In this document: one piece after another, positions 39,090 to 56,442 of the stretch
Layout: every line of letters begins with the position of its first letter
Numbering within the stretch: position 1 is the first letter of the stretch
Source: Paenibacillus sp. FSL R5-0766
GTDB taxonomy: Bacteria > Bacillota > Bacilli > Paenibacillales > Paenibacillaceae
Assembly (NCBI RefSeq): GCF_037971845.1
Contig: NZ_CP150227.1
Location: 4,216,001 to 4,280,000, forward strand
Reading direction: 5' to 3'
DNA: 64,000 nucleotides
Position numbers and translations under genes: made by a program
The notes under the pieces: generated by a model
What the model was told of the DNA's origin: nothing
Database searches by the model: none
What the model saw: the letters and a program-made list of their open reading frames with translations, nothing else

Positions 39090-39132
39090 TGTGTGCCTCA
39101 TCACACCCGTCCCCACCTCAATAACGTAATCT
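39090..39132 (+). promoter_or_regulatory. Fnr/Crp-type box and promoter of nirK
   Basis: TGTGT-GCCTCA-TCACA at 39090-39105 matches TGTGA-N6-TCACA at 9 of 10 positions. A -10 candidate TAATCT at 39127-39132 puts the predicted start at about 39139, which is 41.5 bp from the box centre, the class II activator position. A weaker copy (TGTGA-AAAACA-TCACT) lies at 39178-39193, just before the coding region. Confidence 0.6.
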
Positions 39133-39213
39133 ATAACTAAATAACTACTGAAATGAAAGAAAACCTGTTTTTTAGATTGTGAAAAACATCACTTGAGTAA
39201 AGGTTGTGCAACT

Positions 39214-40209
39214 ATGTTCTCCTTACTGAATGTATATAAATGGTCACTCGTATTCGCTATATTCACAGCAACGCTCTCTCACTGTAGTTCAACTGATACG
39301 GTTAAACCTGTTCACCACGATGAAGTCTCCTCCTCCTCCTCTGCGGTCAGTCAACCCCCGGTGGACCCGATCATTCGCAGAGAAGGTACTACGGTATATA
39401 TTGAAATGACGGCTCAGGTTACAGATGTCGAAATCTCCGAAGGAGTGATCTACAACGCTTGGACATTTAATGGTACCGTTCCCGGACCCGTCCTACGAGT
39501 GACCGAGGGAGATACATTGGTGTTCACGTTAAAAAATAAAGATTCCAGCCTGCCTCACTCCATGGATTTTCACGCTGTACATGCTGCTCCAAGCAGCAAA
39601 TTTATTGATGTGATGCCAGGCGAGGAAGGCACGTTCACCTACTCAACCTCCTCACCAGGTGTATTCATGTATCACTGTGGAACCAAACCGGTTCTTGCCC
39701 ATATCGCAAACGGGATGTACGGCATGATTATTGTTGAACCCAAGGCTGGATATCCTTCCGATGACTTGGTTGATCGTGAGTATACCCTTGTTCAGAGTGA
39801 ATGGTACAAAGAGCATGATTATGAAGCTTTTTTGAACGGGGAACCGGATTATGTCGTATTTAACGGTAATGACTATGGATTAGTAAAACATCCCCTGTTA
39901 GCCAAAGTAGGAGATACGGTGCGAATCTATGTCAGTAATGCCGGACCCAATGAAGTCTCATCCTTCCACGTTGTGGGTACCATTATGGACCGTGTGTATA
40001 CCGATGGGAATCCACGCAACATCCAGTATGGAATACAGACGGTTATGCTTCCCGCAAGTGGTGGAGCTGTCGTAGAGTTCACCGTGACCGAAGAAGGTGA
40101 TTATGCGATTGTAACCCATCAGTTCAACCATGTAGCCAAAGGCGCTGCCGCTGTTCTGCGTGTGACCAAGGATGGTACGGATCATGGTGGACCCACGATG
40201 TCTCACTGA
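39214..40209 (+). CDS. nirK: Copper-containing nitrite reductase-like protein
   Basis: Exported two-domain cupredoxin of 331 residues that would reduce nitrite to nitric oxide. All expected copper ligands are present: type 1 His115, Cys155, His163, Met168; type 2 His120, His154, His302. The catalytic Asp118 and a second-domain His252 are present too. The N terminus is a signal-type sequence with a Cys at residue 24, in an atypical lipobox (LSHC), so a lipid anchor is possible. The ATG at 39214 is a choice; TTG at 39193 is an alternative. It is followed 56 bp later by a Crp/Fnr gene. Confidence 0.8.
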   Translation: MFSLLNVYKWSLVFAIFTATLSHCSSTDTVKPVHHDEVSSSSSAVSQPPVDPIIRREGTTVYIEMTAQVTDVEISEGVIYNAWTFNGTVPGPVLRVTEGDTLVFTLKNKDSSLPHSMDFHAVHAAPSSKFIDVMPGEEGTFTYSTSSPGVFMYHCGTKPVLAHIANGMYGMIIVEPKAGYPSDDLVDREYTLVQSEWYKEHDYEAFLNGEPDYVVFNGNDYGLVKHPLLAKVGDTVRIYVSNAGPNEVSSFHVVGTIMDRVYTDGNPRNIQYGIQTVMLPASGGAVVEFTVTEEGDYAIVTHQFNHVAKGAAAVLRVTKDGTDHGGPTMSH

Positions 40210-40265: not shown

Positions 40266-40952
40266 ATGATCTGTACACACGAAGCGAAGGATGCCTGTTT
40301 CTCCAAAGTATCTCTGTTCCAGCATCTTGATCCATCCGAAGCTGCCTTGCTGATCTCCCTTCTGCATACCCGCAAATATAACAAAGGCGAAGTTGTCGTT
40401 CAGGAGGGCGAACGCTCAGATACGCTTTACGTGGTCCACCAGGGATGTGTGAAGTTATCCAAATACAATGGAAATGGCAAGGAACATATTATTCGGTTTC
40501 TGTTTCCCGGTGATTTCTTCGGACAAGATTCCCTGTTACACCAAAAACCACATGCCGCGAACGCCGAAGTTCTGGAGCCTTCAGCCATCTGCTCTATCAG
40601 CAAGCATGACTTTGACCAGTTACTTGAACATGATCCGAAGCTTGCTTACCATTTCCTGCTTGCCATTTCCAATCTTCTGCGTGAAACAGATGAATGGAAC
40701 AGTTCGCTCAGTGCGATGACAACGGAACAGAAGATTGCCAAGCTGCTTTTGTATTTCCATACCCGAAATCATGCAAGGCATGAGATCCGCTTGCCTGTTT
40801 TCAAAAAAGATATGGCTCTGTTACTCGGGATTACACCTGAAACACTAAGTCGCAAACTTACCATGATGCAAACTCAGGGGCTACTTCAGGTTACAGGAAA
40901 CTGCATCCTTATTCTTCAACTGGAGCAGCTTAGGGAAAAGGTTACTCACTGA
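40266..40952 (+). CDS. Crp/Fnr-family regulator with FNR-type recognition helix
   Basis: Regulator of 228 residues with an N-terminal cyclic-nucleotide-binding-type domain and a C-terminal winged helix-turn-helix. The recognition helix reads TPETLSRKL, which has the E-x-x-S-R pattern of FNR and Dnr, proteins that bind TTGAT-N4-ATCAA. Cysteines occur at residues 3 and 11, in HQGCVKL, in SAICSIS and near the C terminus, so a redox or Fe-S sensing mode is possible, but the spacing is not that of E. coli FNR. GAGGTG precedes the ATG, and it follows nirK by 56 bp, probably in the same transcript. Confidence 0.85.
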   Translation: MICTHEAKDACFSKVSLFQHLDPSEAALLISLLHTRKYNKGEVVVQEGERSDTLYVVHQGCVKLSKYNGNGKEHIIRFLFPGDFFGQDSLLHQKPHAANAEVLEPSAICSISKHDFDQLLEHDPKLAYHFLLAISNLLRETDEWNSSLSAMTTEQKIAKLLLYFHTRNHARHEIRLPVFKKDMALLLGITPETLSRKLTMMQTQGLLQVTGNCILILQLEQLREKVTH

Positions 40953-41026: not shown

Positions 41027-41069
41027 TGTGAGTATCGTCACAGTGCGGGCTTACGTTAGCGTATACAGT
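41027..41069 (+). promoter_or_regulatory. Perfect Fnr/Crp-type box and promoter of the YlbF-like gene
   Basis: TGTGA-GTATCG-TCACA at 41027-41042 is a perfect consensus box. A -10 candidate TACAGT (41064-41069), or TATACA at 41062-41067, puts the start near 41076, again about 41 bp from the box centre. Confidence 0.75.
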
Positions 41070-42465: not shown

Positions 42466-42508
42466 TGTGACCTATATCACCTGCTGTGTTCAAAAATCAC
42501 GCTATGAT
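42466..42508 (+). promoter_or_regulatory. Fnr-type box and promoter facing antisense to ywiC
   Basis: TGTGA-CCTATA-TCACC (42466-42481) matches the box at 9 of 10 positions. On the plus strand a good -10, TATGAT at 42503-42508, gives a start at about 42515, 41.5 bp from the box centre. A transcript from here would run antisense through ywiC toward the fnr-like gene. On the minus strand, toward the ZIP gene, no matching -10 was found. Confidence 0.45.
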
Positions 42509-43320: not shown

Positions 43321-44022
43321 ATGAGCAGGGTAAACAAAGATTCAGCAGCGGAGTTTCTACAACAGTTCCCCATCTTTCAGGACCTTAGTCCAGAAGAATT
43401 AATGCAGGTCGAAGATATCGCCATTTCCAGAAGCATTCATAAGAAAACGGTCATTTTTAGCGAAGGTAGCGAAAAAGAAGCTGTTTTTTTCATTCGTACC
43501 GGCATCGTAAAAGCATATAAAACGGATGAGAACGGACATGAACAGATTGTCTCTTTTCTCAAAACAGGAGATATGTTCCCGCACACCGGCTTTTTTAACG
43601 CACACCCCTATCCGGCTACCGCTGAAGCGATTACACCTACCGAATTACTGGCCATACCCGTCAGACTGTTCGAACGTTTAATGCTGAGCACTCCATCGAT
43701 TGCGATCAAAATCATGCGTGTACTCGGAGACAAAATACGAGAATTACAGGATAAATTGCAGGTACTCTCTGGTCAGGACGTGCGCAACCGCGTGCTTTCC
43801 TTCCTTCTCATGCTCGCAGAACAACACGGACAGACGCATGGAGACCAAATTATCATCAACCTGCCCATGACACACCAGGAGTTTGCCAATTCCATTGGTA
43901 CAACAAGGGAAACAGCGAATCGGCTTCTGAATCAGCTTACAAAAGAGCATTTGATCGAAGTGGATCGCAGCCGAATTATCATTCTTGATTTACAAGCATT
44001 GAAGCAACAAAGGGATGCCTGA
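43321..44022 (+). CDS. Crp/Fnr-family regulator with CRP-type recognition helix, no cysteines
   Basis: Regulator of 233 residues with a cNMP-binding-type beta-barrel (about 15-130), a dimer helix and a C-terminal HTH. The recognition helix TTRETANRLL has the R-E-T-x-x-R pattern that in CRP reads TGTGA, so this protein is the best candidate for binding the TGTGA-N6-TCACA boxes around it. It contains no cysteine at all, so unlike Bacillus Fnr it cannot carry an Fe-S cluster and must sense another signal or be constitutive. It is divergent from ywiC and convergent with narK. Confidence 0.88.
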   Translation: MSRVNKDSAAEFLQQFPIFQDLSPEELMQVEDIAISRSIHKKTVIFSEGSEKEAVFFIRTGIVKAYKTDENGHEQIVSFLKTGDMFPHTGFFNAHPYPATAEAITPTELLAIPVRLFERLMLSTPSIAIKIMRVLGDKIRELQDKLQVLSGQDVRNRVLSFLLMLAEQHGQTHGDQIIINLPMTHQEFANSIGTTRETANRLLNQLTKEHLIEVDRSRIIILDLQALKQQRDA

Positions 44023-44144: not shown

Positions 44145-45656
44145 TCAGGCGATTGTGAGCTCTGGCCTGCCCATGTCACTGAACATGCCCGCATAATATT
44201 TGACATCGCCTGCCTCATTACGGATTGCCGTAATACTTAGCCATTCCTGATAGATCTCTCCGTTTTTCTTCCGATTCCAGATCTCGCCTTGCCAATATCC
44301 TTTTTCACGTAATTCCAGCCATAATTGGTCATAGAAACGTTTGTCCTGTTTACCGGATTTCAGCAGGCTTGGCTTCTGTCCAACCGCCTCTTCAGCACTA
44401 TAACCAGTGACCGCAGTAAAGGCCGGGTTCACGGATGTAATAACGCTGTTCGTATCTGTGATCAGAATAGCTTCAATGGTACTCTCCAGAATGCTCGCAG
44501 ATAACTGGAGTTTCTCCTGGTAGAACATCCAGATCACAAGTACAAGACTGACCAACGCAATCTGAGACAAAGCCATGAAACCAATGGCATAATGACCGGT
44601 CATGCTGTACAACAAAGTCAACATCAACGGAGGGAAGAATCCACCCAGTCCCCCCATAGCGGAGATCATTCCATTCGCTACACCTGGTTGTTTGACGAAA
44701 TACATTGGCACTAATTTGAAAATGGTTCCGTTACCTGTCCCTGCGCATAATGCCACAGTCAGACATCCAATCGTGTAGATATAGAATGATGGCGCGAAGG
44801 ATAATACAATCGCTGCGATCGTTAATCCGCCGAACACAAACATTAATATTTTGAATGGATTAAATCGATCTCCAAGCCAACCTCCCACGGGCCTCATAAT
44901 GGTTGCAACGAGAATGAATCCCGCTGTACGAATACCTGCATCGACTTTATCCATCTGAAAGTGACTAACCATGAAATTCGGCAAGTACACCGTAAATGCC
45001 ACGAACGAGCCAAATGTCAGAAAATAAAACAAGCAGAGCAACCATAGTTTATTGTTGCGTGATATGGCCTTCAGTTGCTGCATTAAAGGAGCGTTAACTC
45101 GTACTTCCTGTTTGTCACCCAGAACGAAATTCAGCGCCGCCATCCCTAATAGCAAAATACTGTAGAGCAGAACCGTCGTAGACCATCCCATACGATCAGC
45201 GATCAGCGGGGCTCCGAATGCAGACAGTGCTGTACCCAGGTTACCAATTCCGTAGATCCCGTTAACAAATCCATGTCGCTCTTTCGGATAATATTTGGGC
45301 AGTGAAGTTACACCGACGGAGAAGACAGCTCCCCCAATACCGAGGAACAATCCACCAATCACCAGATCACTGAACGACGTCGCACGGCTAATCCACCATA
45401 CCGGAGCCAGCAGCAGGACAAAGCTGATCATGAAAATATTGCGTGCTCCATATCGATTCGTCCAATAACCAATCGGAATACGGGCAATCGATCCGATCAA
45501 TACGGGAATCGCTGTCGCCCACGCAAGCTGGGAAGACGTAAGCGCAATATCTTCTTTAATAAATGGCATCAGAGATGACAGGATAACCCATACCATGAAA
45601 CCCAGAACCAGACTTGCCGTTTGCAAGGGCAGTTGAACCTTTCCTTTATGTTGCAT
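44145..45656 (-). CDS. narK: NarK-type nitrate/nitrite transporter fused to a PAS domain
   Basis: Protein of 503 residues. Residues 1 to about 382 are a major-facilitator nitrate/nitrite transporter with twelve helices and the usual motifs, such as GYWTNRYGARN and GIGNLGTALSAFGAPL. The last about 120 residues form a typical PAS domain of the S-box kind (VNPAFTAVTGYSAEEAVGQ, then GYWQGEIWNRKKNGEIYQEW). No kinase or other output domain follows. It starts immediately after the narI stop, so it is the last gene of the nar operon. The PAS part may gate transport by redox or ligand state. Confidence 0.9.
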   Translation of the reverse strand: MQHKGKVQLPLQTASLVLGFMVWVILSSLMPFIKEDIALTSSQLAWATAIPVLIGSIARIPIGYWTNRYGARNIFMISFVLLLAPVWWISRATSFSDLVIGGLFLGIGGAVFSVGVTSLPKYYPKERHGFVNGIYGIGNLGTALSAFGAPLIADRMGWSTTVLLYSILLLGMAALNFVLGDKQEVRVNAPLMQQLKAISRNNKLWLLCLFYFLTFGSFVAFTVYLPNFMVSHFQMDKVDAGIRTAGFILVATIMRPVGGWLGDRFNPFKILMFVFGGLTIAAIVLSFAPSFYIYTIGCLTVALCAGTGNGTIFKLVPMYFVKQPGVANGMISAMGGLGGFFPPLMLTLLYSMTGHYAIGFMALSQIALVSLVLVIWMFYQEKLQLSASILESTIEAILITDTNSVITSVNPAFTAVTGYSAEEAVGQKPSLLKSGKQDKRFYDQLWLELREKGYWQGEIWNRKKNGEIYQEWLSITAIRNEAGDVKYYAGMFSDMGRPELTIA

Positions 45657-46382
45657 CTACATCGCCCTTTCCTTTTTTTGTTCCTGATTCGGATACACAG
45701 CACCATCTCTTCTGCGATACAGCACATAACTGCGTTTCAGATAACCCAGTGGCATACTCAACATGTGAACCAGACGTGTAAATGGAAACACGCAGTACAG
45801 TACAAAGGTAAGCAGAATGTGTACTTTGAAGTTCATCGGTACATTCTGCATCAGAACGGGATCAGGCTGGAATACGATCAGACCGCGCAACCACGGATTA
45901 ATCGTTGTTCGATAGTCAAAACCTGTGTGATTCACCGCATTAGCCGAGGTCGCCAGTATTCCGGTGACAATGACTATGATCAACATGGCAAGTGCCATCC
46001 AATCCCCGATGCTGCTTGTCGCCCGCACTCTGCGAGCAACATAACGGCGAACCAGCAAAATGACAGCACCTGCCAATGCAATGATCCCCGCAGGCAGTCC
46101 TCCTGCGATAGCCATCAAGTGATATCCTTCATCACTCAGTCCAATCCAGCGATAGAACTCCACTGGAACAAGCAAACCGGCAATATGTCCACAGATTACA
46201 GCGAATATCCCAATATGGAAGAGTAAACTGCCCCATTTTAGCATGCGTTTCTCCAACATCTCACTGGACTTGGACGTCCAACTGAAAGGATTCGTCACAT
46301 AACGCCAGATTGTCGCCGTAATACAGAAAACAATGACCATATAGGGAAGAGCGCCCCATAACAACAGTTCCAGTGTACTCAC
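45657..46382 (-). CDS. narI: Respiratory nitrate reductase gamma subunit
   Basis: Membrane diheme cytochrome b subunit of 241 residues that passes electrons from menaquinol to NarH-NarG. Five helices are visible, with the heme histidines in LLFHIGIFAVICGH and KVHILLTFVLY ... TRLVH. It overlaps the end of narJ by 4 bp (ATGA) and is followed directly by narK. Slightly longer than usual because of a basic C-terminal tail. Confidence 0.95.
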   Translation of the reverse strand: MSTLELLLWGALPYMVIVFCITATIWRYVTNPFSWTSKSSEMLEKRMLKWGSLLFHIGIFAVICGHIAGLLVPVEFYRWIGLSDEGYHLMAIAGGLPAGIIALAGAVILLVRRYVARRVRATSSIGDWMALAMLIIVIVTGILATSANAVNHTGFDYRTTINPWLRGLIVFQPDPVLMQNVPMNFKVHILLTFVLYCVFPFTRLVHMLSMPLGYLKRSYVLYRRRDGAVYPNQEQKKERAM

Positions 46383-47056
46383 CGATTCCCCCTCCTCATC
46401 TGGGCAGCGATCTGCATAAGATCTGCAGGTTGTTGGTTAACTGTCTCTTCTTGTTCTGGCACATCAGGGGCAGGAGGCTCAGGAATGACCTGTAACATCA
46501 GACTGAGCAATGGTCCATATGGGCTGTTCTGTCCCGTAATGCTTTCGCTCATTGTGACCAACGCCTTATGGCAACTGGAGAGCACCCCTAAGGCATCTTC
46601 CTCGGGAGCCTCAGCTACAAATTCAAGCACCATAGGCAAATAGTCCGGCAACTCACTCACTTCCATATAAAATCCCGCAGCTTCATATCTGCGTTTCAAT
46701 TCAATCAGAGCCGGGCCCCGATCCCGTTCATCGCCATGAAGAGCATACGTGAGATAGAGGTTACACTTTTTATCAAAATCGAATGTACGAACATAGGCAT
46801 CCTGCCACTCAATCGAGCTTACCGCCTGTGCTTCATCTACAAATGTCAGCAAGATCTGGTTCACCATCTCATCGGAAATGGACTGTATAGCTTCCTTCAC
46901 TCCTTGCAGTCCTTCTCTCCATGCTGTATCCGGATATTGCAACAGGTAGGAGATCAGTTTACAGACCATTCTTCTCGTATTCGAATCGTAAACCAGAGCC
47001 TGACCTGTTCCCTCATTGGGTTCGATCGTCATCGTTGTCATTGTCTCCTTTCCCAT
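46379..47056 (-). CDS. narJ: Nitrate reductase molybdenum cofactor assembly chaperone
   Basis: Cytoplasmic chaperone of 225 residues needed to insert molybdenum cofactor into NarG. The family pattern is visible in RRMVCKLISYLLQYPDTAWREGL and LPDYLPMVLEFVAEAP. The ATG at 47056 shares its A with the narH stop codon TGA, and GGGG lies 7 bp before it. Other in-frame starts follow within 12 codons. The C terminus is Pro/Glu-rich, as in many family members. Confidence 0.92.
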   Translation of the reverse strand: MGKETMTTMTIEPNEGTGQALVYDSNTRRMVCKLISYLLQYPDTAWREGLQGVKEAIQSISDEMVNQILLTFVDEAQAVSSIEWQDAYVRTFDFDKKCNLYLTYALHGDERDRGPALIELKRRYEAAGFYMEVSELPDYLPMVLEFVAEAPEEDALGVLSSCHKALVTMSESITGQNSPYGPLLSLMLQVIPEPPAPDVPEQEETVNQQPADLMQIAAQMRRGNR

Positions 47057-48525
47057 CAAAATACCCCACAAGAACCAGGACCACCTGCAAAATCAAGTCC
47101 GCAGCTGCCCTGTTCGCTGAAGAGATCTTCCACTTCCTCACGGTGGGCTGGCGGGATGACAAAACGATCATTATACTTCGCAATCGCGAGCAGTCGGTAC
47201 ATGTCCTCCACTTCCTGCGCATCCATGCCTACTCTTTCCAACAATGCCGATTCACTGGTCTTACCCGTCTGCTGATTACGCATGTGAATGCGCATAACGG
47301 CCATCTTCCGCAGGACCTCACGAATTCGATCCGTATCTCCTGCTGTAAGCAGATTGGCAAGATACTCCACCGGAATACGCATGTTATCAATCGCAGGGAA
47401 AATATCATTAGCCTCCAGTGAACTTCCCTGTCCCTCTACCCGATTGGTAATCGGGCTAAGCGGTGGAATGTACCATACCATTGGCATGGTACGGTATTCA
47501 GGGTGAAGCGGGAGCGCAATTTTCCAGTCGATAACCATTTTATAAATAGGGGACTGCTGCGCTGCAATAATCCAATCCTCGGGAATTCCTGCCTCACGCG
47601 CTTCGCGAATCACCTCAGGGTCATTCGGATCAAGGAAAATATCCATCTGGGATTCATAGAGATCCTGGTCATTTTCAACGGAAGCAGCAGCTTCAACACG
47701 GTCTGCATCATACAGCATCAGGCCGATATAGCGGATACGTCCCACACAGGTTTCGGAACAGATCGTTGGCAGACCCGCTTCAATCCGCGGGAAACATAGC
47801 GTACATTTCTCGGCTTTGTTTGTCTGCCAATTGAAATAGACCTTTTTGTACGGACAGCTCGAAACACAGAATCTCCATGCGCGGCATGCATTTTGGTCAA
47901 CCAGTACAATCCCGTCTTCTTCCCGTTTGTACATCGCTCCGGAAGGACAGGAGGACACACAGGCTGGGTTAAGGCAATGTTCACAGATCCGTGGCAGATA
48001 CATCATAAATACCTGTTCAAAATCCATCTTGATCGAATCCTCGACACCCTTCATGTTGGGGTCTTCCATCCCGGTTACATGGGCACCTGCCAGATCATCC
48101 TCCCAGTTAGGTCCCCACTCCAGATTCATATATTCACCGGTAATCTGGGATTTCGGTCTTGCTACAGGCTGATGTTTTTTCTCCGGGCTGTTCGTCAGTT
48201 TCTCATACTCGTAGGTCCATGGCTCGTAATAATCATCAATGGTAGGCTGATCCGGGTTATGGAAAATGTTAAGCAAGCGTCTTGCCCGTGTGCCGGACTT
48301 CAATTCCAGTTTGCCATTCTTCATCTCCCAGCCACCGCGATAACGCTCCTGGTCCTCCCATTGTTTCGGATAACCCACCCCTGGTTTGGTCTCTACATTG
48401 TTCCAGTACATATATTCTGCACCTGGACGATTGGTCCAGGTGTTTTTGCACGTAACACTACATGTATGACACCCTATGCATTTGTCCAGATTCATGACCA
48501 TACTGACTTGTGCTTTAATCTTCAA
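47056..48525 (-). CDS. narH: Respiratory nitrate reductase beta subunit
   Basis: Iron-sulfur subunit of 489 residues. Four cysteine groups for Fe-S clusters are visible: CIGCHTCSVTCKNTW, CEHCLNPACVSSCPSG, CRAWRFCVSSCPY and CTLCFPRIEAGLPTICSETC. The CRAWRFC form has the Trp that marks the [3Fe-4S] cluster of NarH. The start is TTG (MKIKAQ) with AGGAGG 9 bp upstream, overlapping the end of narG by 11 bp. Second subunit of the quinol-nitrate reductase at the cytoplasmic membrane face. Confidence 0.96.
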   Translation of the reverse strand: MKIKAQVSMVMNLDKCIGCHTCSVTCKNTWTNRPGAEYMYWNNVETKPGVGYPKQWEDQERYRGGWEMKNGKLELKSGTRARRLLNIFHNPDQPTIDDYYEPWTYEYEKLTNSPEKKHQPVARPKSQITGEYMNLEWGPNWEDDLAGAHVTGMEDPNMKGVEDSIKMDFEQVFMMYLPRICEHCLNPACVSSCPSGAMYKREEDGIVLVDQNACRAWRFCVSSCPYKKVYFNWQTNKAEKCTLCFPRIEAGLPTICSETCVGRIRYIGLMLYDADRVEAAASVENDQDLYESQMDIFLDPNDPEVIREAREAGIPEDWIIAAQQSPIYKMVIDWKIALPLHPEYRTMPMVWYIPPLSPITNRVEGQGSSLEANDIFPAIDNMRIPVEYLANLLTAGDTDRIREVLRKMAVMRIHMRNQQTGKTSESALLERVGMDAQEVEDMYRLLAIAKYNDRFVIPPAHREEVEDLFSEQGSCGLDFAGGPGSCGVF

Positions 48526-51500
48526 GCCAATCCACCTCCTGCAGTTTTCTTATGATGACATTGAGGTCACGCTGATTGCCTGTCGGACCATAGTAGTTGA
48601 AGCCATAACTTAACTGGGCATAACCACCGATCATATGGGTGGGCTTCACATGAATACGTGTCGGACTGTTATGCGTCCCCCCACGTGTCTGTGATATTTT
48701 GGTGCCCGGAACGTTAATATGACGGTCCTGAGCGTGATACATGAATGCCATGCCGCGAGGAATACGGTGGGTCACTACGGCTCGGGCAACGACTACTCCG
48801 TTACGGTTGAAACATTCGATCCAGTCGTTGTCAACCAGTCCGGCTTCTTCTGCATCTTCGTAGTTCATCCAGATTGTCGGGCCACCTCGGAACAACGTCA
48901 GCATCGGCAGCGCATCATAGTACATACTGTGGATCGACCACTTATTATGCGGTGTCAGGTAGTTCAGGACAATCTCCTTTCCCCCTTCGATCGGACGTTT
49001 GCTGTTTGGATGGAACGGTGTATGCTTCAGCACAGGTTTAAATGTCGCTAATGTCTCTCCGAACTCGCGGAGCATCGCATGATCAATATAGAACTGCTGT
49101 CTGCCCGTCAATGTACGCCATGGAATCAGGCGCTCCACATTGGTGGTGAATGGCGAATATCTTCGTCCGCCTTTTTCCGATCCGCTGAATGCAGGCGAGG
49201 TAACGACCGTTTTCGGTTTGGAAGTGATCTCGTCAAACGTAAAACATTCCTCAGACCGTTCCTCAGCCAAATCTTTCAGATGCAATGCTGTTTTCTGTTC
49301 AAGCGCTTCCCACGCACGCACAGCCATCTTGCCGTTCGTTGTACTGGACAAGGTCAGAATGGCCTCAGCAACATTACGGTCTGTGCTCAGATCCGGACAT
49401 CCTTGTCCAACGCCATCTTTACGATGCACGCCCAGGATGCCCTTGAGTTTTTCATACTCTTCACTGGCAGACCAGGATATGCCTTTGGTACCGATTGGTT
49501 TATCCTTCACCACAGGTCCAAGGCTGATCATTTTGTTATATACGGCAGCATAGTCACGTTCCACGACCTGAATATGCGGCATCGTTTTCCCCGGGATTGC
49601 TTCACATTCTCCCGCGCTCCAGTCTTTGATCTCTCCGTACGGTTGGGCAAGCTCATCTGGTGAATCATGCAACAGCGGTGTAGCTATGATCTCCTTCTGT
49701 GGACCATCAAATTGCTGCGCAGCCATCTCGGAGAATACACGTGCAATTTCCTTGAAGGTATCCCAGTCCGAACGGGATTCCCACTGCGTGGCTACAGCCG
49801 GATTAAATGGATGAACGAACGGATGCATATCCGTACTGCTCAGATCGCTTTTCTCATACCAGGTCGCTGCTGGCAGAACAATATCGGAATACATCGCCGT
49901 ACCTGCCATCCGGAAATCCATATTGATCATCAGGTCGAGTTTGCCTTCCGGTGCTTCATCCACCCATTCCACATGCTCCGGGCGCAGTCCATGATCGTCA
50001 TCATTCAGCAATCCGTTCGTTGCACCGAGCAGATGCTTGAGGAAATACTCATGTCCTTTGCCGGAACTTGAGATCAGATTCGCTCTCCAGACAAATAGTA
50101 CACGCGGGAAGTTCGCTGGATCATCGGGTTGCTCGATTGAGAACTTCAGATTTTTGTTCTCCAATTCAGAGGCTACATAAGCACCGATCTCTTCCTTCGT
50201 CGTTGCTCCAGCCTGCAGTGCATCCTGATGCAGATCAATTGAGTTACGATTGAATTGTGGATAAGATGGAAGCCAGCCCATACGCGCAGCCATCACATTA
50301 TAATCAGCCACATGCTGGAACCGCGGTTCACCCTCAAGCGCCGAAGTCAATTCTCCTACTTGGGTCTCCTCGTATCTCCATTGATCTGTCGCAAAGTAGA
50401 AGAAAGATGTTCCGTTCTGCAGACGTGCAGGTCCGGTCCAGTCACGAGCAAAGGCAATCGTCTGCCAGCCTTCAGCCGGACGCAGTTTTTCTTGACCAAC
50501 ATAGTGCGCCCAACCTCCACCGTTCACACCCTGACAGCCTGTCATCAGTATTAAGTTAATGATGGCGCGATAGATGACGTCGGAGTTGTACCAGTGATTA
50601 ATACCGGCTCCCATGATGATCATGGAACGCCCTTTGGTATCGATCGCATTTTGTGCAAACTCACGTGCAATCTGTACTACAGTCTCTTGGTCCACACCAG
50701 TGATTTTCTCTTGCCACGCTGGGGTGAATGGTTTTACCTGTGATGCATTCAAGATGTCGTCTTCACGGTGAACACGTACACTCAACTGCTCCGCACCAGT
50801 GACTACTTCTGCTGAATCCGCAGAACGTGTCATTTCACGTTCAATTCCGTATTTGGCAAGTACCAGATCGTATACGGCTGTTACCGTAATCCATCTGTCC
50901 CCCAGCCAGATCTGGCGTACAGGAATCTGCCGCTTCATGACATGTTTTCCCTCATCATCAAAGTACGGCAGTTGAATGGTTACGAGATCATGATGGACTC
51001 CGAGCATGGATAGTCTTGGATCAATCGGCTCACCGTTCTCCACCTGTTCCATTTTGAGATTCCATGTGCCTTCTTCACCCCAACGGAATCCCAAACTTCC
51101 TTTTGGCATCGCATAGGTTCCACTGTTCTCATCGTATACAAGCGTTTTCCATGCCATATTGTTGCCCGTAATACCCAGGTCTTCCCCAACGAGAAATCTG
51201 CCTGCTGTGTGTATGCCGTCCTTTTCTTCCACAATCAGCAGATTTGGAAAGTCCGTATACTGTTTGGCATATTGCATGAAATAGTCCGTAGGCTTTTCAA
51301 TATAAAACTCTTTCAGGATGACATGGCCCATAGCCATCGCCAGAGCGCCGTCCGTTCCTTGTTTTACCGACATCCATGTGTCTGCAAATTTCACATATTC
51401 CGCATAGTCCGGGCTGATCGACACCACTTTCGTTCCCCGATAACGTGCTTCTGCCAGGAAGTGGGCATCCGGTGTCCGCGTCATTGGCAGATTCGAGCCC

Positions 51501-52267
51501 CATACCAGAATGTATCCCGAGTTGTACCAGTCACTGCTCTCCGGCACATCCGTTTGATCGCCCCAGATCTGAGGTGAAGCCGGCGGCAGATCCGCATACC
51601 AGTCATAGAAGCTGAGCAATGGTGATCCCATTAGGGAGAGGAAGCGCGACCCTGCTGCATAACTGACCATCGACATGGCAGGAATTGGAGAGAAACCAAT
51701 AATCCGATCCGGTCCATATTCTTTGATCGTATGAATTAGCGAAGCGGCAATAATCTGTGTCACTTCACCCCATGACGCGCGAATTAATCCACCTTTACCA
51801 CGTACCGATTTGTATCTTTTCACTTTGGCCGGATCATCCGCAATGCTGGACCACGCTTGAACCGGGTCACCATGTGTCTGAAGCGCATCACGCCACATGT
51901 CCAGCAGCGCACCACGTACGTAAGGATGTTTGACACGTAGCGGGCTGTACAGATACCATGAGAAACTCGCTCCACGCGGACAACCTCGTGGTTCAAATTC
52001 CGGCATATCCGGTCCGGTTGAAGGATAGTCGGTAGCCTGCGTTTCCCAAGTAACAATGCCGTCTTTCACATAGATCTGCCAGCTGCATGATCCGGTACAA
52101 TTGACGCCGTGTGTGGAACGCACCACTTTGTCATGCTGCCAGCGGCGGCGGTAGATATCTTCCCAATCCCGGTTGACCGGGGACATCTCACTCCAGCCCT
52201 CCGCACTTTTTTCACGTTTGGCAAAATATTTGAGTTTGCCCATCCAGGGCATGCTTTTGTTACTCAT
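48515..52267 (-). CDS. narG: Respiratory nitrate reductase alpha subunit
   Basis: Catalytic subunit of 1250 residues that reduces nitrate to nitrite with a bis-MGD molybdenum cofactor. The N-terminal [4Fe-4S] site is in STHGVNCTGSCSWQIYVKDG with CPRGASFSW. The Mo-ligand region is SSDWYNSGYILVWGSN. The length is typical for NarG and there is no Tat signal peptide, so it faces the cytoplasm. It lies 58 bp downstream of moaA, in the order moaA-narGHJI-narK. Regulation is probably through the Fnr-type box upstream of moaA. Confidence 0.97.
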   Translation of the reverse strand: MSNKSMPWMGKLKYFAKREKSAEGWSEMSPVNRDWEDIYRRRWQHDKVVRSTHGVNCTGSCSWQIYVKDGIVTWETQATDYPSTGPDMPEFEPRGCPRGASFSWYLYSPLRVKHPYVRGALLDMWRDALQTHGDPVQAWSSIADDPAKVKRYKSVRGKGGLIRASWGEVTQIIAASLIHTIKEYGPDRIIGFSPIPAMSMVSYAAGSRFLSLMGSPLLSFYDWYADLPPASPQIWGDQTDVPESSDWYNSGYILVWGSNLPMTRTPDAHFLAEARYRGTKVVSISPDYAEYVKFADTWMSVKQGTDGALAMAMGHVILKEFYIEKPTDYFMQYAKQYTDFPNLLIVEEKDGIHTAGRFLVGEDLGITGNNMAWKTLVYDENSGTYAMPKGSLGFRWGEEGTWNLKMEQVENGEPIDPRLSMLGVHHDLVTIQLPYFDDEGKHVMKRQIPVRQIWLGDRWITVTAVYDLVLAKYGIEREMTRSADSAEVVTGAEQLSVRVHREDDILNASQVKPFTPAWQEKITGVDQETVVQIAREFAQNAIDTKGRSMIIMGAGINHWYNSDVIYRAIINLILMTGCQGVNGGGWAHYVGQEKLRPAEGWQTIAFARDWTGPARLQNGTSFFYFATDQWRYEETQVGELTSALEGEPRFQHVADYNVMAARMGWLPSYPQFNRNSIDLHQDALQAGATTKEEIGAYVASELENKNLKFSIEQPDDPANFPRVLFVWRANLISSSGKGHEYFLKHLLGATNGLLNDDDHGLRPEHVEWVDEAPEGKLDLMINMDFRMAGTAMYSDIVLPAATWYEKSDLSSTDMHPFVHPFNPAVATQWESRSDWDTFKEIARVFSEMAAQQFDGPQKEIIATPLLHDSPDELAQPYGEIKDWSAGECEAIPGKTMPHIQVVERDYAAVYNKMISLGPVVKDKPIGTKGISWSASEEYEKLKGILGVHRKDGVGQGCPDLSTDRNVAEAILTLSSTTNGKMAVRAWEALEQKTALHLKDLAEERSEECFTFDEITSKPKTVVTSPAFSGSEKGGRRYSPFTTNVERLIPWRTLTGRQQFYIDHAMLREFGETLATFKPVLKHTPFHPNSKRPIEGGKEIVLNYLTPHNKWSIHSMYYDALPMLTLFRGGPTIWMNYEDAEEAGLVDNDWIECFNRNGVVVARAVVTHRIPRGMAFMYHAQDRHINVPGTKISQTRGGTHNSPTRIHVKPTHMIGGYAQLSYGFNYYGPTGNQRDLNVIIRKLQEVDWLED

Positions 52268-52324
52268 TGTTGTCCTCCCACATATATGACCTGTTGATGC
52301 AAGTCGAATCCTGAACCGCTGTTG

Positions 52325-53326
52325 CTAACCTCCGATTTGCGACATATGTCGCAGCGTTGGTGTGCCGTCAATCTGTTGCCCATTTAAGGCTTTTAACATG
52401 TCATGTGTCTCGGGTTTGGCTCCGAGCGCCTTGTAAAATAAATCCTGCACCGCCTTGTCATCACCTACGAGTGGACGAACATTGAACTCATCTGACCAGT
52501 AGAGACAAGGTTTGATATTTCCGTCTGCTGTCAGCCTAAGCCGATTGCAATTTCCGCAGAAATGGCTGCTCACCGGGTGAATCAGACCAAAGGTTCCGGC
52601 AGCTCCCACAATGCGATAACTATCTGCTGGTCCATTCCCATAAATCTCTCCACAGCTTTCGTACTCCCATCGTGCTCCGCATGTTTCCAGCACATGTTCG
52701 AGGGGCATATACCCAGATCTCCAACCTTCTCCACTTTCACCAATAGGCATGTACTCGATAAAACGAATATGAATGGGTTCATCCCGGGTCATCCTCAGAA
52801 AGTCTTCCACTTCATCGTCGTTCACGCCTTTCATCAGCACCACGTTCAGCTTGATCGGATGAAATCCGGCTTTTTGGCTGGCCTTAATGCCGTCCAGCAC
52901 ACGCTGCACCTTGCCGCCTCGGGTAATGCTTGCGAATCGTTCTGGCTTCAAAGAATCCAGGCTTATGTTCACCCGTGTTAGCCCCGCAGCCTTCAGCAGA
53001 TCCGCATAAGCTGCCAAATAGATGCCATTGGTGGTCAATGCGATATCTTCAATTCCTGGAATAGCGGACAACATCGCAATCAGTTGATCCAGCCCCTTAC
53101 GAACAAGAGGCTCCCCTCCAGTTAAACGCAATTTCCGAATGCCCAATGGAGCAAGCGCCTTAACGATGGACGTGATTTCTTCATAGGACAGGATTCGTTC
53201 TGTCGGTTCAAACTGCATTCCTTCCTCTGGCATGCAATACACACAGCGGAGATTACAACGATCCGTAACCGAAATTCTTAAGTAATCATGTTTTCTTCCA
53301 AACGGGTCCATTAATTTTGATTCCAT
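52325..53326 (-). CDS. moaA: GTP 3',8-cyclase MoaA (molybdenum cofactor synthesis)
   Basis: Radical-SAM enzyme of 333 residues for the first step of molybdopterin synthesis. The N-terminal cluster motif is Cys24-x3-Cys28-x2-Cys31 (CNLRCVYC). The C-terminal second cluster is CGNCNRLRLTADGNIKPC. The protein ends in Gly-Gly, important in the family. GGGAGG precedes the ATG. It is first in the nar operon, which matches the need of NarG for the cofactor. Other moa/moe genes are not in the window. Confidence 0.96.
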   Translation of the reverse strand: MESKLMDPFGRKHDYLRISVTDRCNLRCVYCMPEEGMQFEPTERILSYEEITSIVKALAPLGIRKLRLTGGEPLVRKGLDQLIAMLSAIPGIEDIALTTNGIYLAAYADLLKAAGLTRVNISLDSLKPERFASITRGGKVQRVLDGIKASQKAGFHPIKLNVVLMKGVNDDEVEDFLRMTRDEPIHIRFIEYMPIGESGEGWRSGYMPLEHVLETCGARWEYESCGEIYGNGPADSYRIVGAAGTFGLIHPVSSHFCGNCNRLRLTADGNIKPCLYWSDEFNVRPLVGDDKAVQDLFYKALGAKPETHDMLKALNGQQIDGTPTLRHMSQIGG

Positions 53327-53456: not shown

Positions 53457-53561
53457 AGAAGTGAAACATAGCGCACAGTTGCACATCTATATATGCTCAC
53501 CAACCCTTTTCCAAACAGGATTCTGGTCTAAATAAGTCTAAATTATGGCAAAAAGAAATGT

Positions 53562-53603
53562 GTGAGCCTGCTCACACAGACCCCTCTTCACGTTTTCTAT
53601 AAT
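53562..53603 (+). promoter_or_regulatory. Perfect Fnr-type box and promoter of the DUF2249 operon
   Basis: GTGTGAGC-CT-GCTCACAC at 53561-53578 is a perfect 18-bp palindrome containing TGTGA-N6-TCACA. A perfect -10 TATAAT at 53598-53603 gives a start at about 53611, 41.5 bp from the centre, a classical class II site. Confidence 0.85.
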
Positions 53604-53645
53604 CAAATTGCAGCACCACACTATCCCTATTTGGAGGAATGACAC

Positions 53646-53879
53646 ATGAACACATACGCAGCAACCATTAATGCCACGGAGTATCCACCGCATTTGAAAC
53701 ATAAAGTTATTTTCGAAACGTTTGATCAGTTGCAACCACAGGAATCCATGCTGCTCATCAATGATCACGATCCAAAGCCACTTCGATTCCAGTTCCAGTC
53801 CACACATCCTGATGGCTTCAACTGGGAGTATATTGAGCAGGGCCCTACAACCTTCCAGGTCAAGATCAGCAAACTATAG
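53646..53879 (+). CDS. DUF2249 protein
   Basis: Protein of 77 residues forming a single DUF2249 domain, recognisable from HKVIFETFDQLQPQESMLLINDHDPKPLRFQF and WEYIEQGPTTFQVKIS. GGAGG lies before the ATG. DUF2249 proteins are frequently found beside denitrification and NO-related genes; their biochemical role is not established. It is first in a five-gene operon under a perfect Fnr-type promoter, divergent from moaA-nar. Confidence 0.85.
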   Translation: MNTYAATINATEYPPHLKHKVIFETFDQLQPQESMLLINDHDPKPLRFQFQSTHPDGFNWEYIEQGPTTFQVKISKL

Positions 53880-53898
53880 AATTGGAGCTGAACCCGCT

Positions 53899-54273
53899 AT
53901 GGCCCACGTTGAAATCATTGACAATACTACACTTCGCATCACGCTGAGGTTGGAAGATGCCACAACCATGGTGCAGATAGCACAGCGTGAGCAGGCCGAA
54001 TATGCGCAAGAGATTGTTACCATTTACGAAAAAATGCCTGTGTTCGAATATACTCACTTCTGTTTTTACGCCTATGACAGTGCAAGACTATTTGAGCGTG
54101 TACTCGGCATGGACCCCAAAGCCTATCTGTCCTTTTCCCTCGATGCGCCGGAGTCATTCTTCTACGCGCTGTACGGTGGAATGGCCGCCCTTTATGAATC
54201 ATCTCTACAGTTGGTACAACAGGCGGATGTAGCTAGCGCAGGATCGGATGTGAACGCACATGTCTCCATCTGA
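53899..54273 (+). CDS. Hypothetical protein in the DUF2249 operon
   Basis: Protein of 124 residues starting MAHVEIIDNTTLRITLRL. The ATG lies 19 bp after the first DUF2249 stop codon with GGAGC upstream, and its end overlaps the next gene by 14 bp. No family recognised. It contains FEYTHFCFYAYDSARLFERVLGMDPKAYLSF and aromatic-rich helices but no obvious cofactor motif (one cysteine). Its tight placement suggests a direct role with the DUF2249 proteins. Confidence 0.7.
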   Translation: MAHVEIIDNTTLRITLRLEDATTMVQIAQREQAEYAQEIVTIYEKMPVFEYTHFCFYAYDSARLFERVLGMDPKAYLSFSLDAPESFFYALYGGMAALYESSLQLVQQADVASAGSDVNAHVSI

Positions 54274-54865
54274 TGTCCATATTGTTGAATTGGATGTACG
54301 CACTCATCTGAGTAAAAAGTTGGAGCCGTTTCAGCTGATCATGGACACGGTCAAAAGCCTTCAGCATGAAGATGTCTTTGTACTACATGCTCCATTCAAG
54401 CCGACGCCTCTGCTCGGTATTCTCAAGATGAAAGGGTATTCCAGCACATCTGAACGCAGGAGTTCAGATCACTGGGTTACCACGTTTGTGCACAAAAAAA
54501 ATAAAACCGGTGCAAAGGTAATTTCTGCAATGGTTTTATCTGGATCAGAAGTTAATTCGGAACCCGATTCAGATGAAGAATCAGCTTCATGCAAAGGACA
54601 TCCGGAGGAGCAAGTTGTTGCGATTGCAAACATTGAAACTCCACAGGCACCCAAAGTTATATTGGACAATCGCGGATTGGAACCGCCACAGCCCATGATG
54701 CGAACACTTGCGGCTCTGGAGCGTTGCAAACCTGGGGAAGTCGTACTGATTCACAATGACCGTGTACCTGTATTCCTGATTGAAGAGTTGAACAATCTCG
54801 GTTGCACCTACACGGTTGAAGATCAAGCCGATGGCACAGCCAAAGTGAGAATTGAAAAAGGGTAA
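54260..54865 (+). CDS. Tandem DUF2249 protein
   Basis: Protein of 201 residues with two DUF2249 domains. The first (about 8-78) has LDVRTHLSKKLEPFQLIMDTV and VFVLHAPFKPTPLLGILKMKGY, close to the family consensus. The second (about 130-198) has LDNRGLEPPQPMMRTLAALERC and VVLIHNDRVPVFLIEELNNLG. An acidic linker joins them. The start overlaps the preceding gene by 14 bp; the next gene begins 14 bp later. With the gene at 53646 this makes three DUF2249 domains in one operon. Confidence 0.85.
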   Translation: MSPSDVHIVELDVRTHLSKKLEPFQLIMDTVKSLQHEDVFVLHAPFKPTPLLGILKMKGYSSTSERRSSDHWVTTFVHKKNKTGAKVISAMVLSGSEVNSEPDSDEESASCKGHPEEQVVAIANIETPQAPKVILDNRGLEPPQPMMRTLAALERCKPGEVVLIHNDRVPVFLIEELNNLGCTYTVEDQADGTAKVRIEKG

Positions 54866-54878
54866 GGAGGCGAAAGCC

Positions 54879-56111
54879 ATGTCCAGGTTGCCGTTTCTTT
54901 TTATCATCACGGGCATCTTTGGATTTGTAATGTATCACGCCTTCTCTCTGCTCTCGCTGACAGGTTGGCTTGGTGATGAACTCAGAGGACCCGAAGGCTG
55001 GTTTCATGCCCATCTGTTTGTACTCGGGTGGGCAACCATGCTCGCTATGGGTGCCGTTTATCAGTTGATACATGTTATTTTGCAAGCCAATATCTACAGT
55101 CTGGTTCTCGGTTATTGTCATTATTTCTTGTTCAGTATCGGAATCGTAGGCATGTTATACGGCTTCATTCGTGCAGATGTCATCTGGATTGCCGGTTCTG
55201 CGACACTCGCGCTCTCTGGCATCCTGTTGTTCGGATGGAATATGGCTGTTACCCTCTTCCGTGCCTCACAATGGAATCCGGTAACAATCAGTGCCGCATG
55301 TTCCTGTCTCTATCTGGTTCTAACCGGGCTTTCCGGTATGCTGATGGGTCTGAATTTTGCCTTTGGTGATTGGAATAGTCTGCATGAACGCTTATTCGGC
55401 GCACATATCTGGATGGGAACACTTGGCTGGTTTGGCATGTTAATTACCGGCTTCAGTTACAAAATGCTTCCGATGTTCTACCTGTCCCACGATTATTCCA
55501 TTCGACTGCAAAAAGTGGTCCTGGTTCTGTGGAATGCAGCTGTAATTACAGGTGTTGTCGCATTTCTGACAGGTATCAAGGGAGGCTTGCTCTGGCTTGC
55601 GCTCTTACTTCTAACCGCCGCCCTTCTCTTCTATGTGTATCACTTGGAGCAAATTCAGGAGAAAAGGCACAAAAGTAACCCAGGTCCGGGTATTCGCTGG
55701 TCTGTGTATGTAAGTCGTGCCTTTGCCGTGTATGCTGTCGCCCTATTGATCTATTCTGCACAAGGAACCGAACTGCTGCTCCATCCACGTGTTGTTCTAT
55801 TGTCTGGATGGGTATATCTCGGGGGCTGGGTATCCCTCACCATACTCGGATATGCCTCCAAAATCGTACCTTTTCTGTGGTGGACCCACAAATACGGCAA
55901 GCAGGCAGGCAGACCCGGAACACCGCTAATGGCTGGTATGCTGAGTGAACGGAACGTCAATTGGGGGATGATCGCCATGGTGGCTGGAAGCCTTCTGCTA
56001 GTCAGTGGAATTCTGATTAATCTGGCAGAGGTCATGATGGTTGGAGGGACGATCTTGTCTCTTGTCTCCATTGTTTATATAACAAATATTACTTTGGTAT
56101 TCCGACGTTAA
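54879..56111 (+). CDS. Heme-copper-oxidase/NnrS-like membrane protein
   Basis: Integral membrane protein of 410 residues with about eleven or twelve helices. It is related to cbb3-type oxidase subunit I and NnrS-like proteins. Three repeated segments share the pattern G-W-x(n)-G-x-x-Y/A-x-x-x-P, seen in HAHLFVLGWATMLAMGAVYQ, AHIWMGTLGWFGMLITGFSY and the WVYLGGWVSLTILGYASKIV region, each with flanking His. The full set of heme and copper ligands of a true oxidase is not evident. The ATG at 54879 has AAGGAGG 9 bp upstream. A role in NO or nitrite stress is likely but unproven. Confidence 0.75.
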   Translation: MSRLPFLFIITGIFGFVMYHAFSLLSLTGWLGDELRGPEGWFHAHLFVLGWATMLAMGAVYQLIHVILQANIYSLVLGYCHYFLFSIGIVGMLYGFIRADVIWIAGSATLALSGILLFGWNMAVTLFRASQWNPVTISAACSCLYLVLTGLSGMLMGLNFAFGDWNSLHERLFGAHIWMGTLGWFGMLITGFSYKMLPMFYLSHDYSIRLQKVVLVLWNAAVITGVVAFLTGIKGGLLWLALLLLTAALLFYVYHLEQIQEKRHKSNPGPGIRWSVYVSRAFAVYAVALLIYSAQGTELLLHPRVVLLSGWVYLGGWVSLTILGYASKIVPFLWWTHKYGKQAGRPGTPLMAGMLSERNVNWGMIAMVAGSLLLVSGILINLAEVMMVGGTILSLVSIVYITNITLVFRR

Positions 56112-56139
56112 CATAAATAAGGTGGATTGGAGAGTGAAC

Positions 56140-56442
56140 ATGATGGAACAAACCACGCATTTGCTAGAATGTCTCAAGGAAGTATATGACCCTGAATTAG
56201 GTGTTAATATCGTTGACCTTGGTCTGGTGTATGAAGTAAGGGAAGAAGCTGAACGAGTACATGTACGGATGACGTTAACTACACCAGGTTGTCCGCTGCA
56301 CGATACCATCGTTGGTGCGGTGAAATGGGTTTTGCAGGAAAATACAAATAAGACCGATATTGATGTTCAAGTCGTGTGGGAGCCACAGTGGTCTCCACAG
56401 CTGATGTCGAATGAAGCCAAGGAAATGCTGGGATACTTCTAG
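56140..56442 (+). CDS. DUF59/MIP18-family (metal-sulfur cluster) protein
   Basis: Protein of 100 residues of the DUF59 family, which includes the Fe-S cluster assembly factors SufT/Cia2. It contains VYDPELGVNIVDLGLVYEV and TTPGCPLHDTIVGAVKWVL, the family signature with a conserved Cys. The ATG at 56140 is directly behind GGAGAG; GTG at 56122 is an alternative. It is last in the DUF2249 operon, suggesting Fe-S repair or assembly, a known need under NO stress. Confidence 0.88.
   Translation: MMEQTTHLLECLKEVYDPELGVNIVDLGLVYEVREEAERVHVRMTLTTPGCPLHDTIVGAVKWVLQENTNKTDIDVQVVWEPQWSPQLMSNEAKEMLGYF

Follow-up and report, generated by a model that had tools for sequence, protein, structure and literature searches.

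Genes of the DUF2249 family, which we take to be the same as COG4309, occur in several described systems resembling the five-gene operon analysed here, which comprises genes A to E at positions 53646–56442 of a 64,000-nucleotide stretch of the Paenibacillus sp. FSL R5-0766 genome (NZ_CP150227.1, positions 4,216,001 to 4,280,000; the whole stretch is referred to as the window). Among these systems is drpAB of Thermus, published as bicistronic (PMC6282519; review PMC7694296). According to the available portions of this and the other publications cited, drp deletion in Thermus makes nar expression independent of nitrate, and in double mutants the nitrate reductase subunits are made and the activity is low (PMC6282519). 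COG4309 genes were seen together with nor genes in proteobacteria in 2005, within predicted regulons responsive to nitric oxide (NO), and a relevance to NO reductase was suggested (PMC1274295). In the archaeon Haloferax mediterranei four DUF2249 genes, located near nirK/nor or nar/nos, are induced under denitrification; the available part of that paper does not describe a five-gene operon (PMC11218638). Another system to be compared is NnrS, which shields iron from dinitrosyl complexes (PMC9246220, PMC11526790).

Genes A and C of the window are homologous to drpA and drpB, respectively, and both pairs lie within the same larger module, A-C-D-E, which is common to Bacillota, Alphaproteobacteria and Thermus. 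The Paenibacillus operon differs from Thermus drp in that it follows nirK, encoding copper nitrite reductase, more than nar. It is tentatively considered here, with a chance somewhat below even, an accessory module of NO-producing nitrite reduction that would serve NO protection or iron-cofactor upkeep. A preliminary description of the window had called it an undescribed system, which is half right: the DUF2249 pair corresponds to DrpA/DrpB (PMC6282519) and the COG4309–nor link has been known since 2005 (PMC1274295). The genes of the operon are the following:

53646–53879, plus strand: gene A, 77 amino acids (aa), single DUF2249 protein, homologue of Thermus DrpA (PF10006, E 2e-23)
53899–54273, plus strand: gene B, 124 aa, no Pfam or NCBIfam family
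54260–54865, plus strand: gene C, 201 aa, two DUF2249 (TusA-like) domains (PF10006 twice), DrpB homologue minus DUF1858
54879–56111, plus strand: gene D, 410 aa, membrane protein with 12 transmembrane helices (TM), predicted heme-copper oxidase/NO reductase fold, invariant His45 and His176
56140–56442, plus strand: gene E, 100 aa, DUF59/SufT-like iron–sulfur (Fe-S) assembly protein (PF01883, E 8e-17), conserved Cys51

As had been described, they form a tight operon on one strand (spacings A-B, B-C, C-D and D-E of +19, -14, +13 and +28 bp), in which three DUF2249 domains, one in A and two in C, and the DUF59/FeS_assembly_P domain of E pass the Pfam cut-offs.

Co-occurrence with nirK and narG

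Two other features of the window enter the comparison:

39214–40209, plus strand: nirK, copper nitrite reductase, matching solved nitrite reductases (E 8e-121) with the ligand region kept; co-occurs with the operon
44145–53326, minus strand: narK-narIJHG-moaA block, divergent from the operon; missing in six relatives that have nirK and the operon (narK remnants in one)

The alignment of the window NirK with 3wi9, from which the above E-value comes, keeps both DFHAVH and YHC...H...M. The same protein lies below the cut-off of the NCBIfam nirK model TIGR02376 (216 against 296 bits), so that annotation with that model would overlook it.

The presence of the operon follows nirK more closely than narG, as seen in samples of 75 genomes of the genus and 344 genomes of the family. 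In these narG was counted only above the curated cut-off, and weak nirK matches (4 genomes of the genus with E of about 1e-21, 41 of the family with 31–35% identity) were dropped as other multicopper oxidases. Within the genus, 32 genomes carry DUF2249 domains, with three matches each, and the same 32 carry D, two of them with broken frames; B was found in 26 (one fragment), narG in 46 and true nirK in 33. All 32 operon-bearing genomes have nirK, compared with 1/43 operon-less ones, the respective figures for narG being 26/32 and 20/43. In the family, where B is present in 57, nirK in 60 and narG in 134 genomes, nirK accompanies B in 50/57 genomes and occurs in 10/287 of those lacking B, as against 43/57 and 91/287 for narG. 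The link between nirK and B is seen both in the narG-bearing (37/43 vs. 4/91) and in the narG-less (13/14 vs. 6/196) family genomes. The proposed link to NO-producing metabolism is supported. The expected co-occurrence with both nar and nirK stands for nirK, absent from none of the 32 operon-bearing genomes of the genus and from 7/57 B-bearing genomes of the family; the tie to nar is weakened, since the operon is found without narG in 6/32 genomes of the genus and hardly ever without nirK.

Ten family genomes have nirK and lack B. Inspection of the nirK-bearing genomes without B covered all but G322 and G349: five genomes of the genus and G105 (6/10) carry A-C-D-E, which in G105 precedes nirK by about 3 kb; in G306, A adjoins nirK. 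In G033 both nar and the operon are gone and nirK-crp1-zip-crp2-cupin is kept.

The six operon-bearing genomes without narG (L097–L102) constitute a natural experiment in which the nar block is gone and the operon kept. The nar-moaA block is absent between crp2 and A, and nirK, crp1, crp2 and the operon are retained. Four of these six genomes have B, and in five of the six the alignment spans 98% or more of nirK and of each operon gene that the genome has. Also absent from five is ywiC, situated between zip and crp2 in the window, and zip is reduced to a 9% match in L097. Remnants of narK lie in the gap of L098, so loss of nar is likely there. Several genes of L102 (genome G054), nirK, C, D and the cupin gene among them, are in pieces, perhaps because of assembly quality. 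On a tree built for 32 genomes from A, C and a portion of D, the nar-less state corresponds to six changes, at least five of them forced by well-supported branches; the tree by itself does not tell loss of nar from gain.

The presence of the operon without narG in these genomes speaks against a Drp-type nitrate-dependent control of nar. A nitrate sensor or nar regulator as proposed for Thermus, in which A would sense nitrate and C would restrain the nar regulators, is unlikely in our estimation, even though A and C are homologues of DrpA and DrpB, whose deletion makes nar nitrate-independent (PMC6282519), the operon is divergent from moaA-nar, and 18 of the 67 B loci have narG, as compared with 9 that have nirK, within 10 kb. 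Besides the six genomes, 20 narG-bearing genomes of the genus do without the operon, an Fe-S assembly protein and an oxidase-fold membrane protein would be odd parts of a sensor, and C has no DUF1858.

The close association with nirK might alternatively mean that NirK receives quinol electrons from D and is matured by the small proteins. We attach little probability to such a role, although nirK is the tightest co-occurrence partner and lies after A-B in L070, after B-C-D-E in L094 and beside A in L171, and is preceded by A-C-D-E at about 3 kb in L172, because the module lies beside nos or nar in the Mesorhizobium and Thermus stretches seen, and because a copper enzyme has no evident use for an Fe-S assembly protein.

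As a candidate NO reductase of the genus, the qNOR domain (PF22085) was rejected: it was found in none of the 75 genomes, 33 of them with nirK, and in 17 of the 344 family genomes. An oxidase search of eight genomes of the genus, six with nirK, revealed besides D one or two open reading frames of 635–687 aa in each, unlike NO reductases in length; the typing, limited to the genome of the window itself, identified its two as aa3-type CtaD/QoxB. No evident NO reductase was therefore found in the nirK-bearing Paenibacillus genomes searched, flavohemoglobin-like NO sinks not having been searched for, and it is possible that these bacteria are NO emitters without a known NO reductase. In this respect the operon differs from the COG4309 genes near nor, to which the DUF2249 family relates it.

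The module in other phyla and its neighbours

The records of plasmids and other phyla were picked by hand, eight among the 70 matches listed. On R. etli p42f a DUF2249 gene is followed by genes for a 450-aa hypothetical protein, a double DUF2249 protein and a DUF59 protein, and then by nnrS and nirK, with nor genes (read partly from product names) and hemN upstream. The gene order on S. meliloti pSymA is the same, with A-D-C-E between nor/hemN and nnrS-nirK. In Mesorhizobium D and C come after nos, with A and E nearby. In T. thermophilus JL-18 (L141:10016-12802) nar is followed by genes for a DrpA-like and a DrpB-like protein; close behind them come genes for a 144-aa protein weakly similar to COX1, for a protoglobin, for a D homologue (E 1.4e-48) and for a DUF59 protein. 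The Thermus module adds a protoglobin and the 144-aa protein, and none of the Thermus proteins compared matches B. The D homologues of other phyla give profile E-values of 4e-33 to 1e-48 and 100% in hhalign. In Agrobacterium, where D is missing, A and C lie between nor and nnrS-nirK. In Azospirillum, Eleftheria and Haloferax DUF2249 genes lie near nos or nor and the full module is absent; a neighbour in Haloferax resembles D weakly (E 0.003).

Among the genes within 10 kb of B, RIC, an Fe-S repair protein, is encoded in 7/67 loci, and HemY, the protoporphyrinogen/coproporphyrinogen oxidase, in 15/67. It is also worth noting that a radical SAM/SPASM protein of TIGR04053 (AhbD-like) is encoded within the same distance in 21/67 loci, near A-B (e.g., L078:10715-13227). 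HemY and the TIGR04053 protein are a candidate anaerobic heme-finishing pair in Bacillota. A conserved, unnamed 435-aa family, c43, with no Pfam or NCBIfam match (L077:14248-15555; also L069, L071, L074 and L076), is found in loci of the Alicyclobacillus type, in the vicinity of A, of B and of distant homologues of C-D.

Such neighbours could also indicate that the operon supplies heme or Fe-S clusters to anaerobic respiration rather than protecting against NO as such. HemY and TIGR04053 near B, the hemN gene adjoining the module in R. etli and S. meliloti, the SufT-like nature of E, and the Thermus double mutants with nitrate reductase subunits and little activity (PMC6282519) all fit this explanation, which nevertheless seems improbable: nitrate reductase depends on heme and Fe-S clusters, yet the operon is absent from 20 narG-bearing, nirK-less genomes of the genus.

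The encoded proteins

In T. thermophilus JL-18, DrpA and DrpB were identified by their position after nar and by size; protein A shares 43% identity with the DUF2249 protein recognised in this way as DrpA. As a homologous single-DUF2249 protein encoded in a denitrification cluster, A can be considered a DrpA. Protein C gives a profile match of E 3e-27 to the 273-aa DrpB-like protein of Thermus, which combines DUF1858 with two DUF2249 domains; C has no DUF1858 and hence does not have the full DrpB architecture.

The second domain of C also matches the TusA family PF01206 above the cut-off. In TusA the catalytic cysteine sits in CPxP. C does not qualify as a TusA sulfurtransferase: the site reads EPPQP, the cysteine being replaced by proline (PPQP), with P142, P143 and P145 invariant and no Cys in 43/43 sequences. 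H43, H71 and H165 are likewise invariant in all 43. Protein E matches PF01883 and has C51 and H54 in 51/51 sequences, in agreement with the SufT/DUF59 family; the NCBIfam equivalog cut-offs are not reached.

Gene B had been suggested to encode a new component, and it indeed represents a real conserved family unnamed in the libraries searched. It matches neither Pfam nor NCBIfam, and 0/59 members of its family match Pfam at E 0.01. At E 1e-3 there are 336 matching proteins, the window's own counted, and 66 of the 67 B loci carry Bacillota titles. The record L060, titled Arthrobacter beigongshangensis, has a Bacillota-type operon and is perhaps a mislabelled or mixed assembly. The predicted B model has a pLDDT (predicted local distance difference test) of 91; a convincing match of its fold among solved structures is absent, which need not mean a new fold. 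Comparison with the 144-aa Thermus protein and 22 proteins of the plasmid regions gave nothing below E 1.6, and no significant match among PDB sequences came from HMMER with B, C or D as the query. Neither B nor the five-gene operon was met in a title or abstract of the literature on DUF2249, COG4309, DrpA/DrpB, NnrS, Paenibacillus nirK and TIGR04053, a search whose scope mostly did not extend to subscription papers.

Protein D had been labelled NnrS-like. Both are multi-helix membrane proteins of NO-linked gene clusters; D, however, gives no PF05940 match at E up to 1 and a profile–profile probability of 9% in hhalign, by which the label fails, whereas the NnrS of R. etli matches PF05940 at E 5e-111. 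In Pfam D meets COX1 alone, weakly and below the cut-off. It is predicted with good confidence to adopt the heme-copper oxidase/NO reductase fold and would, by its model, belong to that superfamily in the wide sense (the 12-TM catalytic-subunit fold). Its identity with CcoN of the cbb3 oxidase and with the NO reductase NorB is 12–13%, and as profile comparison shows no direct match with NorB, the similarity to the latter is seen by fold alone. Heme-copper oxidases and NO reductases have six metal-ligand histidines, including active-site ligands in TM7 and TM10. Since D has His45 (TM2) and His176 (TM6) as its sole invariant histidines (46/46 sequences), with none in TM7 or TM10, it does not qualify as such an enzyme. 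A new NO reductase with D as the catalytic subunit replacing the missing NorB, and A, B, C and E as maturation or electron-transfer parts, is very improbable in view of these two histidines and of R. etli and S. meliloti, in which D and nor genes adjoin.

Possible function

The oxidase-fold D with its two histidines, the Fe-S factor E, the cysteine-less, histidine-bearing TusA-like proteins and the RIC, HemY and TIGR04053 neighbours together point to iron chemistry under NO; the operon may serve NO protection or the maintenance of iron cofactors. NirK would release NO, upon which a CRP/FNR regulator would turn the operon on. D may hold one heme in the membrane and capture or relay NO, or electrons, and A and C, the small soluble proteins of the DUF2249 family, would together with B, a putative partner of A, and with E protect or rebuild iron centres attacked by NO, i.e., Fe-S clusters and heme iron. 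The operon would thus act as a guard of the iron pool in the manner of NnrS, yet be distinct from it. The Thermus double mutants would also fit a wider role.

Several points weigh against this proposal. In Thermus the A-C pair is tied to nar, its mutants being altered in nar regulation and lowered in nitrate reductase activity (PMC6282519), and the literature search found no operon mutant whose NO resistance had been measured. Seven of the 57 B-bearing family genomes lack nirK (six have narG, two a norB/qNOR domain), and among family genomes without nirK B goes with narG (6/93 vs. 1/191). Near B narG is met more often than nirK (18/67 vs. 9/67 loci), the window nirK, about 13 kb from the operon, being outside the 10-kb reach of this count. 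Fisher p-values overstate the evidence, because the genomes share ancestry, and we infer heme binding by D from two histidines and a predicted fold.

To our knowledge, ordinary oxidases leave the place between helices 2 and 6 empty. A bolder version, which we think unlikely, would place A-C-D-E at the heart of an NO-handling complex that is widespread but has gone unrecognised, in which D lost its catalytic site, holds a single heme between these helices and hands NO or electrons to the DUF2249 carriers; in Paenibacillus the complex would take the place of the NO reductase that is missing, B being a new-fold partner of A.

As an NO-protective module, the operon would be a concrete candidate set for how nirK-bearing Paenibacillus survive their own NO. 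Thermus drpAB, so far read as a nitrate sensor, would be recast as part of a larger module with oxidase-fold and Fe-S assembly proteins, and the uncharacterised families B and D gain a testable setting.

The promoter region and candidate regulators

The following features concern regulation:

53559–53578, no strand: CRP/FNR-type palindrome TGTGTGAGC-CT-GCTCACACA, 9-bp arms, 2-bp centre, 18 paired bases
53598–53603, plus strand: -10 box TATAAT at class II spacing, first base 29.5 bp past the palindrome centre
39090–39105 and 39178–39193, no strand: two CRP/FNR-type boxes upstream of nirK, one mismatch each
40266–40952, plus strand: crp1, CRP/FNR regulator with 5 Cys, possible Fe-S FNR
43321–44022, plus strand: crp2, CRP/FNR regulator adjoining nar, zero Cys

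The perfect 18-bp palindrome, with its core TGTGAN6TCACA at 53561–53576, and the TATAAT at the class II distance are confirmed as described. The promoter carries a conserved CRP/FNR-type box, above chance. Of 79 loci surveyed (L030–L108), 76 include an A gene preceded by 150 bp of DNA or more, four of them being second copies of the same genome; TGTGAN6TCACA occurs within 200 bp upstream of A in perfect form in 58/76 and with at most one mismatch in 74/76, compared with 1.2% and 2.9%, respectively, of 2370 pieces of 200 bp drawn at random from these loci. The box lies mostly about 75 bp before A and, in most loci, 28–29 bp before a TATAAT-like -10 hexamer; Paenibacillus, Cohnella, Bacillus and Alicyclobacillus are among the bearers. 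Within the window itself, when up to two mismatches are allowed, the pattern shows no enrichment (31 seen, 41 expected). Fnr control, as had been claimed, stands as regards the type of box but not the identity of the regulator: crp2, devoid of cysteine, cannot encode an Fe-S FNR or Fe-S oxygen sensor, and crp1 may encode one. Further CRP/FNR-type boxes are located after crp1 (41027–41042, no mismatch) and near ywiC (42466–42481, one mismatch).

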